Source of the DNA: Sulfolobales archaeon
GTDB lineage: Archaea > Thermoproteota > Thermoprotei_A > Sulfolobales > AG1
Direction of reading: 5' to 3'
Assembly (NCBI GenBank): GCA_038897115.1
Contig: JAWAXC010000002.1
Location: 1 to 64,000, forward strand
Length of the DNA stretch: 64,000 nt
In this document: positions 40,190 through 47,044 of the stretch, piece by piece
Position numbering within the stretch: position 1 is the stretch's first letter
How the letters are laid out: each line of letters opens with the position of its first letter
The notes under the pieces: generated by a model
The model's input: only the letters and a program-made list of their open reading frames with translations
Databases searched by the model: none
Told to the model about the DNA's origin: nothing
Program-made: the position numbers and the translations under genes

Positions 40190-40489
40190 GGTGTCTCTAA
40201 CTAGAGTATGTCGACAACCGAGAACCCGCGCCTCCGGGGCGAACAGTTGGGCATGTATATTAATGCTTTTAAGCTTTGTTCAACATTTTCTTATTGGGTT
40301 TGAAGCCGATGAGATTAGCGAGGCTGATGAACACTATGCCCTTTATTACCTGGGGGAGCACAGCTCCCCGAAGGGTGGTAGAGAGCGAGACCCAGCCGTG
40401 ATGAGCCAAGCCGTGGCAGATATATATCTGCCACAGTTCAGGTGAACGGTTCTCAACCCTCCTCTGAATACCCCTCCTAATACATCTAT
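40190..40489 (+). ncRNA. Candidate structured RNA segment, GC-rich
   Basis: This ~300-base segment has no convincing gene but contains a 7-bp hairpin GGGGAGC-ACA-GCTCCCC and a perfect 22-base palindrome GTGGCAGATAT/ATATCTGCCAC, plus GC-rich blocks (CCCGCGCCTCCGGGGCG) in an AT-rich genome. It leads straight into terminal hairpin copy C. By analogy with the TnpB element it could be the omega-RNA scaffold of another TnpB family, or a relic of it. It lacks SRP and RNase P RNA hallmarks. Strand is assumed from copy C. Confidence 0.35.
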
Positions 40490-40530
40490 ACAACTGAAAG
40501 CCTCGCCCCTTTAGGGCGGGGAGGAGGTCA
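40490..40530 (+). repeat. Hairpin family copy C (element right-end type)
   Basis: ACAACTGAAAG is followed by stem CCTCGCCC/GGGCGGGG and the end GAGGAGGTCA. From 40501 to 40531 it is identical to copy D on the other strand, so C and D are inverted repeats facing each other across ~213 bases. It looks like the right end of an IS200/IS605-type element. Confidence 0.65.
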
Positions 40531-40713
40531 GAGTGTATAGAGGTTCTAAATAACCCTCATGATCCTGGAATGTTTTGAGTAGAAATGATATATCCGCCAT
40601 CCTCTCTAGCATTTCAATATCATATCTAACCTCTCTGAGAATCCTCTTAGCAACACCTATGATCTCCTTAAAACCCTCCTCTAGAAAACCCTCTTCCCTC
40701 TCCATAATCCCAT
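40531..40713 (-). pseudogene. N-terminal fragment of an Hsp20-like gene
   Basis: Read leftwards, ATG at 40713 gives MGLWRGKRVF and then a stop; the overlapping frame from ATG 40705 continues as LEEGFKEIIGVAKRI, LREVRYDIEMLERMADISF. Joined by one frameshift this looks like the helical N-terminus of archaeal small heat-shock proteins. It runs into terminal hairpin copy C, where homology ends. The alpha-crystallin part lies on the opposite strand at 42.2 kb. The assignment depends on that pairing and is moderate. Confidence 0.45.
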
Positions 40714-40743: not shown

Positions 40744-40888
40744 TGACCTCCTCCCCGCCCTAAAGGGGCGAGGGTTCCCTTCAGGGCGGTTCATTGGTTT
40801 AGGGCTACATTCCCGGCTTTCGCCGGGTTTAGCCCTGGGCCGGGTCTCCGGCCAATTACCCCTATCCCGCATAGCGCGGGACTCGGGG
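40744..40888 (-). ncRNA. Candidate omega-RNA (reRNA) at the 3' end of tnpB
   Basis: The last ~100 bases of tnpB and the ~45 after it are unusually GC-rich and fold on the minus strand as successive hairpins: CCCGCGCTATGCGGG (40880-40866), GGCCGG-AGAC-CCGGCC (40853-40838), AGGGCTA/TAGCCCT (40836-40830 with 40807-40801) enclosing CCCGGC-GAAA-GCCGGG (40827-40812), a short CCCT/AGGG hairpin, then CCTCGCCC/GGGCGGGG ending GGAGGTCA at 40744. This is the layout of TnpB guide RNAs, with the guide expected to begin just past 40744. Transcription is not shown. Confidence 0.65.
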
Positions 40889-42065
40889 TTATGGCCTTCT
40901 TTTTAGCTAGTATGTTGAACGCCCCAACGAGGTCTGCGTTGAATATGATGTTATGTTTATAGCATTTGAATAGCCCCCTTGTTATTCTCTCATGATTCTC
41001 TATACTTCTGCATATTGGGCATGTCCTAGATGTATTTTTCTCATCAACATGCTCGATCTCTATCCCGTATTCCTCAGCAACCTCTCTCAATCTTCTCAAT
41101 AGATATCCATAGCTCCATATATGGACAATCTCGAAGTTAACCTTAGAACCCATACCAGGCTCCTGTACAGCATATTTTGGATGACCAACATATATCTTCT
41201 TAACACCTTCACTATATAGCCATTCTATTGTGTTCCTAACAGCCCAGTCTATATAGCTCTTGATCTGTCTTCTCCATTTTTTATACATCCTCCTAAGCCT
41301 CCTAGAAGATCTCAAACCATATCTATTCAAGGTGCTTTGATAGCTAGAGATCTTCTCCCTCCAGTAGAAGCTAATAGCCTTCAAAGGCCTCCCATTAACC
41401 AATAAAGCAGATCCATCATCAACATATATAGCCAATAGGTTGTTAACACCTATATCTATGCCGGCCTCCTTATCCCCAAGAGGCTTTAGAGGAATCCTAA
41501 AGCTACTACCCTTGACTACCTTCTTATCAACCTCGTAGGATATGTATATATACCATTTCTTATCATCAGCATCATAGTGTATCTCAGCCCTACCCTGCCT
41601 CCCAGAAATATGTATCCTGCCTGAGTATCTAACTCTCATAGATCCAATAGCTCCTAAGCCCTTAATAACTATATACTCACCATCAACCCTATACTGGTCG
41701 TTTCTAAGCACAGCCCACAGTGTTCTGATCTTCCCCTTCTTCCTATAACCAGGTGGGTTAACCCTTGTTATGAACGGTGGTAGCCTACCCTCCTTCTTAG
41801 CCTTCAAAGATGAGAAGAATGATCTCCAGGCCTCATCATTCTTGTTGAGGATCTGCTGTGTTGTTGCAGATCCGATTATCTTCTTATATCTCTCGTAGAA
41901 CTCCTTATACGTGCTCTTAAGATCTACTTTTTTGGTTTCGAAGAACTGTCTCCTCCTAGCATAGTTCACCTCGTTCCAGAGCTTTGAAGAGATATTACAG
42001 AGCGTCTTTAGCCTCTTCTCAGCCTCCTCATCCGGCAGTAGCCTTAGCATCACAGTTCTGATCAA
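40791..42065 (-). CDS. tnpB: TnpB, IS200/IS605-family RNA-guided nuclease
   Basis: This 424-residue TnpB has an N-terminal helical/WED region, RuvC-I Asp204 (GIDIGVNN), RuvC-III Asp378 (FNADLVGAFNIL) and a zinc finger with Cys349, Cys352 and Cys368 plus His371. At the usual RuvC-II position the sequence is IYVGHP (291-296), with no glutamate. Glu342 in HVDEKNTSRTC may serve instead, as reported for TnpB clades with a rearranged catalytic site. The start is TTG 42065 or ATG 42050. No TnpA is nearby. The C-terminal PGLNPAKAGN tail overlaps the omega-RNA. Confidence 0.9.
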   Translation of the reverse strand: MIRTVMLRLLPDEEAEKRLKTLCNISSKLWNEVNYARRRQFFETKKVDLKSTYKEFYERYKKIIGSATTQQILNKNDEAWRSFFSSLKAKKEGRLPPFITRVNPPGYRKKGKIRTLWAVLRNDQYRVDGEYIVIKGLGAIGSMRVRYSGRIHISGRQGRAEIHYDADDKKWYIYISYEVDKKVVKGSSFRIPLKPLGDKEAGIDIGVNNLLAIYVDDGSALLVNGRPLKAISFYWREKISSYQSTLNRYGLRSSRRLRRMYKKWRRQIKSYIDWAVRNTIEWLYSEGVKKIYVGHPKYAVQEPGMGSKVNFEIVHIWSYGYLLRRLREVAEEYGIEIEHVDEKNTSRTCPICRSIENHERITRGLFKCYKHNIIFNADLVGAFNILAKKKAITPSPALCGIGVIGRRPGPGLNPAKAGNVALNQ

Positions 42066-42191
42066 TGTATCACGCCCGGGGCCCTGGCGGGCATAGAGAT
42101 AGAGGGGATAGCTATATTTTAGCCGCTTGAGGTTGGCCCGCCAAGGCCACCGAAATACACTAGAGGACTCAATTTATAAGCTTATCGCCAT
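42066..42191 (-). mobile_element. Left-end region of the TnpB element
   Basis: This non-coding stretch upstream of tnpB contains GC-rich complementary blocks such as GCCCGCCAGGGCCCCGGGCG and TGGCCTTGGCGGGCC in an otherwise AT-rich context. It probably holds the element's left end and tnpB promoter. The exact boundary with the target-adjacent motif cannot be fixed, because a further right-end-type hairpin (copy E) adjoins it. Confidence 0.4.
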
Positions 42192-42222
42192 CCCCGCCTT
42201 AAAGGAACAAGGTTTTCAGTTG
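42192..42222 (-). repeat. Hairpin family copy E
   Basis: On the minus strand it reads ACAACTGAAAACCTTG, then TTCCTTTAAGGCGGGG, matching copy C with mostly transition differences that replace Watson-Crick pairs by G-U pairs. It sits between the TnpB left-end region and the Hsp20-like C-terminal fragment. It is likely an older element end. Confidence 0.5.
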
Positions 42223-42488
42223 TAAGCGCTATTGAAGGTGGGTATAGGTTCGTAATAGATGTTCCGTGTGCAGATAAAGATACTATTGAGGTGAGTAGTG
42301 TTAAGAAGACTATAGAGCTTAGGGTAAAGATATCTAGGGATAAGATTAAAGCTCTAAGTACTATGGGGGCTGACACACTTCCTATTAAGGGATATAGATT
42401 GAAGTATGATCTACCGTTTGAACCAGATCCAAATAAGATCCGGGTTAGAATGAGGGCAGGTTTCATAGAGCTTATAGTTATGAAATAG
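42213..42488 (+). pseudogene. C-terminal fragment of an Hsp20-like gene (alpha-crystallin domain)
   Basis: An open frame without any usual start runs from inside copy E to 42488. It encodes the alpha-crystallin domain: VSAIEGGYRFVIDVPCADKD, TIEVSSVKKTIELRVKIS, YRLKYDLPFEPDPNKIRV and a final AGFIELIVMK. The pattern of strands and the terminal A-G-F-I-E-L motif are those of small heat-shock proteins. An ATG at 42291 lies inside the domain and could not give a whole one. The N-terminal part appears to be the fragment at 40531-40713. Confidence 0.62.
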
Positions 42489-44991: not shown

Positions 44992-45111
44992 TCATAAAAT
45001 GAATAGCTAATTCTGGCTATAAGCGTTTACTCCTATTCTTAGTAGAGTATCAAACGTATTAGATTTAAACGATATATCCGATATATGTTTCAGAATTTTC
45101 GAGGAGGTATA

Positions 45112-46047
45112 ATGCCTATATATAGTATACATAGACTCTCCCATGTAGCTGTGAATGTCTCCAGTATTGAAAAGGCTCGAAGCTTCTATGTTGATATATT
45201 AGGGTTTGTAGAGGTTGAGAGAAGCGGGGGCAAGCTCTACTTAAAAGGGGTTGAGGAGGGCCAGCACCATAGCTTAGTTCTTAGAGAGGCAGGTCAGCCG
45301 GGTCTTAGCTATGTTGGGTTTAGGGTTGGCTCTCCAGATGATCTTGATAGGGCTAGGGAGTACTATATGTCTAGAGGGTGTAGGGTGTTTAAGTTTAAAG
45401 AAAAGGGTATTGGAGATGCTCTAATGGTTATAGATCAATTTGGTGTTCCGTTGGTGCTACACTATGATATAGAATATATTGGGGATCTAGGGCTTAAGTT
45501 CCATATGCACCGGGGCGCTCCACCTATAAGGCTTCACCACGTTAACCTCGGGCTAAAGCTAAAGGATCTTGAGGATGGGATTAAATACTATATAGAGGAT
45601 CTCGGCTTTATACTCACAGAATACTTCCTAGGACCCGATGGTTCTAAGCAATTAGCGTGGCTCTCTACTAGATATACACATAGCTCCCACGAGGTCGCCA
45701 TAGCTAAGGCTGAGCATGTGGCTTTCCACCATTTCGCATATTACGTATATGAGCCGAGGGATCTGGTTAAAATAGCAGATCTATTAGCAAGTCTCGGCAT
45801 GTGGGACTCAATCGAGAGAGGCCCCGGTAGGCATGGAGCTACAAGGGGTTTCTATCTATATCTAAGAGATCCTGATGGAAATAGGGTTGAGCTTTATCAG
45901 GGAGACTATGTTATATTAGATCCTGATAAGTGGAAGCCCATAGAGTGGAAGTATGAGCAGCTAAGATATAGATCTGATTTCTGGGGAAGACCAACACCGG
46001 AAAGATGGAGGGAAACAAAACCAGTAAGCCCGCCAATCGAGGAGTAA
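45112..46047 (+). CDS. Two-domain VOC protein, extradiol (catechol 2,3-) dioxygenase-like
   Basis: This ~311-residue protein has two vicinal-oxygen-chelate modules. Fe-ligand candidates are the histidine in LHHVNLG, the histidine in AFHHFAYYV and the glutamate in GNRVELYQGDY, matching type I extradiol dioxygenases such as homoprotocatechuate 2,3-dioxygenase. It would cleave a catechol ring; the natural substrate is open. ATG 45112 follows GAGGAGGT and is preferred to 45085. The TAA stop lies at the very edge of the hairpin element on the other strand. Confidence 0.85.
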   Translation: MPIYSIHRLSHVAVNVSSIEKARSFYVDILGFVEVERSGGKLYLKGVEEGQHHSLVLREAGQPGLSYVGFRVGSPDDLDRAREYYMSRGCRVFKFKEKGIGDALMVIDQFGVPLVLHYDIEYIGDLGLKFHMHRGAPPIRLHHVNLGLKLKDLEDGIKYYIEDLGFILTEYFLGPDGSKQLAWLSTRYTHSSHEVAIAKAEHVAFHHFAYYVYEPRDLVKIADLLASLGMWDSIERGPGRHGATRGFYLYLRDPDGNRVELYQGDYVILDPDKWKPIEWKYEQLRYRSDFWGRPTPERWRETKPVSPPIEE

Positions 46048-46147
46048 CCTCCTCTCCACCCTAGAGGGTGAGGGTTTCCTAGGGAGAAACGGGATTTGGA
46101 CTATATTCCAGTCTCTTGCCCGGTTTAGCCAATGCCTAGTCCTAGGC
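46046..46147 (-). ncRNA. Orphan omega-RNA-like element (hairpin copy F with scaffold)
   Basis: On the minus strand the order of hairpins equals that of the tnpB 3' end. GCCTA-GGAC-TAGGC (46147-46134) corresponds to GGCCGG-AGAC-CCGGCC. TGGCTA/TAGTCCA (46131-46126 with 46103-46097) encloses CCGG/CTGG, then GTTTC/GAAAC, and the terminal CACCC/GGGTG hairpin ends AGGAGGTTA. Stem sequences differ from the tnpB copy, yet most pairs are kept. No tnpB is present; a rhodanese gene ends at 46214. It may be a relic or an independently kept guide RNA. Confidence 0.55.
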
Positions 46148-46213
46148 GTGTTATCCCAAGATAGCTAGAGACACTAAATAATGGTTTGAATAGTTTGATA
46201 GGATTATTGAAAA

Positions 46214-47044
46214 TTAATAGTTAGCCGACGGCTCGCCTAGTTCTATTTCTAGCTCTTTTTTTGATGAATATTCATAGAAGGATTCTGGGTAGAGTTTTAC
46301 ATTCTCTAGACCTAGTATCTTGCTGAGAACCAACCATGCTATTGAGGCTCTCTCGCCTGTTGCACAGTAGGTGATTATCTTTTTTTCTCTGGCTTTTTCA
46401 ATGATAACCGCTATTCTTTCTAGAGCTGTTCTATCCCCATTAAGGATCTGTATGAATATGTTTGGATGGATCCACAGGGCTCTAGGGATCCTCCCCGGCC
46501 TTGGGGTGGTTTGGAGCGAGCCTATGTACTCCTCATATGTTCTTATATCTAGAAGTAGGGCTTCCTCCTTCCCCCCTACGATCTTTGCTATTTCATCTAA
46601 AGTAGATCTTATAAAATCCCTGATCCTTGGTCTATACTCCTTCGGCTGTGGCTTTACAACACCTTTTTCGAGAGGAAAGCCCCTGCTTTCCCACTCTTCC
46701 ATACCCCCTTTCAATAGGTAGATCTCCTCCTGCCCCATGTATTCTAGATACCAATATGTATAGCTGGCAAGCCCGATGCTCATTCTATCATATGCTATAA
46801 CTACCCTATCCTCTCTAGCTATGCCGTTTTTGCCGAGTATCCTTGCGATCTCTTGGGGATCCTTTGGCTTTGAAGGCATCCCCTTCTCATGTTCTGTGAA
46901 GTCCCAGAAGTATATCCAGAGCGCCTTGGGTATATGTGCTCTCGCATATTTGGAGAAAGGCCTTATATCAACTACAACCAGCGATCCTGAATCGATCCCT
47001 TTTAGAACGGCTTCAGCATCAATAAATATATCCTTTGGATCCAA
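46214..47044 (-). CDS. Two-domain rhodanese
   Basis: This 276-residue sulfurtransferase has the active cysteine in KIITYCATGERASIAW (C-terminal domain) and an inactive first domain (VVIAYDRMSIGLA). It is a paralog of the 4.2-5.0 kb protein but diverged. It directly follows the MetE-like gene by one base and is probably in one operon with that gene and osmC. Confidence 0.92.
   Translation of the reverse strand: MDPKDIFIDAEAVLKGIDSGSLVVVDIRPFSKYARAHIPKALWIYFWDFTEHEKGMPSKPKDPQEIARILGKNGIAREDRVVIAYDRMSIGLASYTYWYLEYMGQEEIYLLKGGMEEWESRGFPLEKGVVKPQPKEYRPRIRDFIRSTLDEIAKIVGGKEEALLLDIRTYEEYIGSLQTTPRPGRIPRALWIHPNIFIQILNGDRTALERIAVIIEKAREKKIITYCATGERASIAWLVLSKILGLENVKLYPESFYEYSSKKELEIELGEPSANY

Follow-up and report, generated by a model that had tools for sequence, protein, structure and literature searches.

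Does a TnpB omega-RNA-like sequence that stands without a tnpB gene still serve as a guide RNA, or is it the worn end of a transposon? The question is raised by the minus strand at positions 46047-46192 of the window, the whole 64,000-nucleotide stretch of Sulfolobales archaeon DNA analysed here. An earlier note on this DNA had reported that 46046-46160 repeats the hairpin order of a tnpB 3′ end at 40744-40888, and had proposed either a transposon stump or a guide RNA kept in trans for a resident TnpB.

Homology of the locus to tnpB 3′ ends

The tnpB element used for comparison lies on the minus strand of the window. Its tnpB gene (40791-42065) matches NCBIfam NF040570 guided_TnpB with 154.5 bits, as well as Pfam OrfB_IS605 and Cas12f1-like_TNB. 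The left end (LE) region, at 42191-42224, has a TTAC flank followed by AACTGAAAACC, and an intact omega-RNA and right end (RE) occupy 40746-40902. In the second RuvC motif of the TnpB protein no catalytic Glu is evident, VGHPKYA being found where Cas12f has MEDL; the RuvC alignment is weak, and either the Glu is relocated or the protein may be nuclease-dead.

When aligned with 40744-40888, the interval 46046-46160 matched end to end over its whole length. The homology is real and the hairpins can be recognised in the reported order, but the interval had been drawn too short, as homology reaches ~30 bases further 5′ and takes in what is left of the first hairpin. A covariance model of tnpB 3′ ends was built from eight tnpB-linked copies (model R1), with the locus excluded from training. 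It recovered 46047-46192 on the minus strand with 60.8 bits (E 3.7e-16); the omega-RNA and RE of the comparison copy, itself used for training, scored 147.5 bits. The assignment of 46047-46192 as a decayed omega-RNA and RE of an IS605/IS1341-type element is based on this model, on a sequence-only model and on alignment. BLAST of the locus against the host genome (2.44 Mb in 188 contigs, 96% complete) gave about ten further copies, most of them near full length, with a top identity of 78%. Identity to intact copies is ~70% across the length of the locus, a point that counts against a reading of it as a decayed stump.

No tnpB was found at the locus by similarity search and, as had been recognised earlier, there is no room for one before the rhodanese-like gene ending at 46214 (46214-47044, minus strand), a same-strand neighbour upstream of the remnant and outside the element. 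An LE was looked for upstream of the remnant and was absent, and the LE region of the comparison element has no counterpart here. The locus thus shows what characterises an IS605/IS1341 terminal remnant, namely one end homologous to a resident element and loss of the core. Downstream, an HpaD-like extradiol dioxygenase gene (45085-46047, plus strand) converges with the remnant. No Y1 TnpA (PF01797) was found in the 96% complete assembly, despite the many tnpB and tnpB-less elements.

In a genome of the same genus (G001), the gene downstream of the rhodanese ortholog (70% identity) is a different one, and the orthologous site yielded no copy of the locus. G001 matches the locus at a single place, within a full tnpB element elsewhere in that genome.

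Apparent compensatory changes and base drift

The case for preserved base pairing had been built on two stems, in which GGCCGG/CCGGCC was said to have become GCCTA/TAGGC, and AGGGCTA/TAGCCCT to have become TGGCTA/TAGTCCA. Among 11 tnpB-linked copies, the second hairpin has the form CGCCTAAGACC(A/G)GGCG in eight and GGCCGG in three, including the window copy. GCCTA/TAGGC is the majority form of the family, inherited by the locus, and was rejected as a compensatory change. TAGTCCA is a single C to T change from the family's usual TAGCCCA. Neither is therefore a pair-preserving change made at the locus. The stems seemed compensated because only two copies had been compared, one of them the window tnpB copy with the minority GGCCGG form; a two-copy comparison can make plain repeat-family alleles look like compensated stems.

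Relative to copy C13, the locus has 25 changes from G/C to A/T and 7 from A/T to G/C, in a window with a GC content of 43%. The locus is drifting toward background base composition. Changes from C13 are equally frequent in paired (22/78) and unpaired (18/61) columns.

Pairing and structure at the locus

It had also been claimed that pairing is mostly kept. At 46047-46192, 30 of the 42 consensus pairs remain; the second hairpin is intact, and a 5-base deletion together with mismatches has disrupted hairpin 1. The locus retains 30 of 39 usable pairs, compared with 29.4 ± 2.0 in a neutral simulation (P = 0.49). This test rests on a stand-in ancestor and, with one sequence, is not powerful: significance would have required at least about 33 of the 39 pairs. 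When four stand-in ancestors were given random substitutions matched in number and kind, a mean of 29.3-30.3 of 39 pairs was kept (P 0.47-0.66).

The locus scored 60.8 bits with structure and 57.2 bits with sequence only, a structure gain of 3.6 bits. The gain was 34.5, 30.2, 23.2 and 23.1 bits for the tnpB-less copies C83, C30, C42 and C163, all outside the training set, and 29.9 bits for the window tnpB copy, which is within it. Folding gave z-scores of -0.51 for 46046-46160 and -0.22 for the extended locus 46047-46192, in both cases no better than shuffles. The z-scores of C83, C30 and C163 were -8.5, -6.6 and -4.3 respectively, and that of the window tnpB copy was -7.6. With a broken first hairpin, a fold z-score near zero and pair retention equal to that of the neutral simulation, the claim of mostly kept pairing could not be upheld.

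These results also bear on the possibility that the sequence was exapted as a 3′ untranslated or transcription-end element. Such a role would suit its position between two convergent genes, to one of which, the dioxygenase gene, it supplies the stop codon. It would not be expected of a sequence that folds no better than shuffles, and a terminator-like scan, which used a bacterial consensus and is weak evidence for an archaeon, found nothing inside the remnant. We consider exaptation of this kind extremely unlikely.

TTAC at the right end

The RE cleavage tetranucleotide of the locus, at 46044-46047 (minus strand), is mutated, with TTAC replacing the family's TCAG. On the plus strand the same bases overlap the dioxygenase gene and supply its TAA stop. 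TCAG strongly predominates among the right ends of elements in this genome and its relatives. Left ends, of which 51 were compared across this genome and relatives, are flanked by TTAC, with 44-47 of 51 in agreement at each position. IS608 has TTAC on the left and TCAA on the right, and the element ends here resemble those of IS608. As read from the left flanks, the target and TAM of the family would be TTAC.

The guide of an omega-RNA starts just after the right end. As the RE of the locus is TTAC, a working guide would therefore adjoin a TAM at its own copy. Such an arrangement would direct TnpB to the locus itself, and argues against a live guide. The proposal of a guide RNA kept in trans supposes that a resident, intact TnpB binds a transcript of the locus and uses the 3′ flank as its guide. 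Several long open tnpB copies are indeed present in the genome, and every hairpin of the locus is still recognisable, in order, with the second intact. The homology to a tnpB 3′ end that a functional TnpB omega-RNA should have is also present. However, the conserved secondary structure that it should likewise have is lacking (structure gain 3.6 bits, neutral pairing, hairpin 1 broken, z -0.22), a TTAC corresponding to the TAM predicted from left flanks stands at the RE where none should follow it, and the site has no copy in G001. A guide kept in trans is thus very unlikely, and probably no working guide RNA is made from 46047-46192.

The locus is very probably the right-end stump of an IS605/IS1341-type tnpB element, in the course of decay. 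We favour this reading, the first of the two originally proposed, because homology is found without LE or tnpB, pairing is neutral with little gain from structure, bases have drifted from GC to AT, TCAG has become TTAC, and G001 has no copy. A tnpB element would have inserted at the 3′ end of the dioxygenase gene, and a later deletion would have removed the left end and tnpB; the remaining right end would then have decayed through ordinary mutation. Most likely the remnant now does nothing beyond giving the dioxygenase gene its stop codon. This locus shows how a worn transposon end can be told apart from a guide RNA by a covariance test.

A sister family carrying the host CRISPR repeat

The locus itself is ordinary; the unexpected result is a sister family of elements that bear a CRISPR repeat. 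Besides the 11 tnpB-linked copies, the genome contains dozens more full-span matches to the covariance model at E ≤ 1, although the weakest may have arisen by chance. Many of the tnpB-less matches are ~260-nt elements in which an LE (TTAC followed by AACTGAAAGCC...) and a specific 5′ block precede the omega-RNA core, with an end after it. About 20 of these hold one copy each of the host CRISPR repeat, matching 22-24 of 24 nt. In them, TGATCTACTATAGAATTGAAAG stands in place of the omega-RNA's 3′ half, which comprises the outer stem and the RE palindrome; in most, the RE tip GGGAGGAGGTCAG or a sequence close to it comes next, the repeat sitting after the inner omega-RNA stem and just before that tip. 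Examples are C69:5058-5328 (L135:1480-1750), C39:1396-1650, C48:6174-6428, C7:29867-30106 and C102:705-948.

The RE tip GGGAGGAGGTCAG is missing after the repeat at C4:26556, C8:36242, C20:10788, C28:1450, C37:13566, C82:341 and C85:3526; the C8 and C37 copies have partial GAATTGAAAG duplications in its place. At C18:22875 (L168), a lone CRISPR repeat stands a short distance before an RE-like end (TTTAGGGTGGGTAGGAGGTCA), and the element core is absent.

Host arrays on contigs C9 and C45 use the repeat GATGATCTACTATAGAATTGAAAG, whose core is matched exactly 79 times on C9 and 62 times on C45. Type I-A cas genes (Cas7/Csa2, Cas5a, Cas3′ and Cas8a2) lie next to the C45 array, and a weak Cas6-like match (23.9 bits, below its cut-off) was found elsewhere in the genome. 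Conservation in 22-base windows of the element peaks at the repeat (0.97, with non-overlapping windows reaching 0.88 at most). Mismatches number 6/418 in the repeat and 501/4009 in the rest of the element (Fisher 7e-16, a value that overstates independence because element copies share ancestry). There is about an even chance that the repeat of these elements is nearly invariant because it engages the host CRISPR machinery, whether by offering a Cbp1-type binding site, by serving as a substrate for Cas6 or by acting as a decoy RNA; exchange with CRISPR arrays could also account for its constancy. Products of crRNA-like processing, cut within the repeat, would start with AUUGAAAG and then GGGAGGAGGUCAG, and a transposon that bears and preserves a host repeat would tie IS605-type elements to CRISPR machinery in a new way.

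The junction of CRISPR repeat and RE defines a family present in one of 214 genomes of the order, the host genome. A junction match in one of the 213 others (G064) lies inside an ordinary CRISPR array and was rejected as chance. Searches for the junction gave no matches in viral_contigs and none in genome_contigs, a collection that may not include this genome. Elements L187, L191, L193 and L212, from other genomes of the order, run from LE to RE with an omega-RNA core, no tnpB, a normal RE and no CRISPR repeat. It is therefore the CRISPR fusion, and not the absence of tnpB, that sets this genome apart. Among open-licence papers, none was found to describe an IS605-type element with a CRISPR repeat of its host.

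Comparison with known systems

Across the window, no curated RNA family scored above its gathering score except one tRNA. Below that level, the window tnpB copy matched RF02656 sot0042 (47.9 bits) and RF00062 HgcC (31.1 bits), and the locus matched HgcC only, weakly (18.9 bits, E 0.52). The sot RNAs have been described as haloarchaeal omega-RNAs (PMC12558985), and the window tnpB 3′ end resembles the omega-RNAs of archaea. The locus shares with archaeal TnpB omega-RNAs such as sot0042 the hairpin order and the 3′ RE, but is without tnpB and has decayed pairing.

Terminal-only IS605-type remnants of Haloquadratum are a known kind that arises by core deletion (PMC3119063). The locus is like these elements and PATEs in having IS605-type sequence at its end and no transposase gene. 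It is not a complete PATE because the LE is absent; of the two near-terminal palindromes it has only the RE, together with the omega-RNA. Elsewhere in the window, at 40489-40531 (plus strand), a 43-base LE hairpin runs directly into the RE tip (TACAACTGAAAGCCTCGCCCCTTTAGGGCGGGGAGGAGGTCAG), an arrangement that recalls the 52-bp terminal-only elements of Haloquadratum (PMC3119063).

For the sister elements, two precedents can be compared. CRISPR-repeat-like Cbp1 sites occur in ISC1229 transposons of Sulfolobales (PMC10883916), which resemble the sister elements in that the repeat-like sequence is found toward the 3′ end of the transposon. ISC1229, however, belongs to the IS110 family and has a 21-bp motif, whereas the sister elements are IS605-type, tnpB-less and hold 22-24 of the 24 nt of the host repeat. 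Solitary repeat units, described in phages and plasmids, act as RNA anti-CRISPRs (PMC10651486) and likewise place a single repeat outside arrays on a mobile element; the sister elements differ in being about 20 chromosomal transposon copies.
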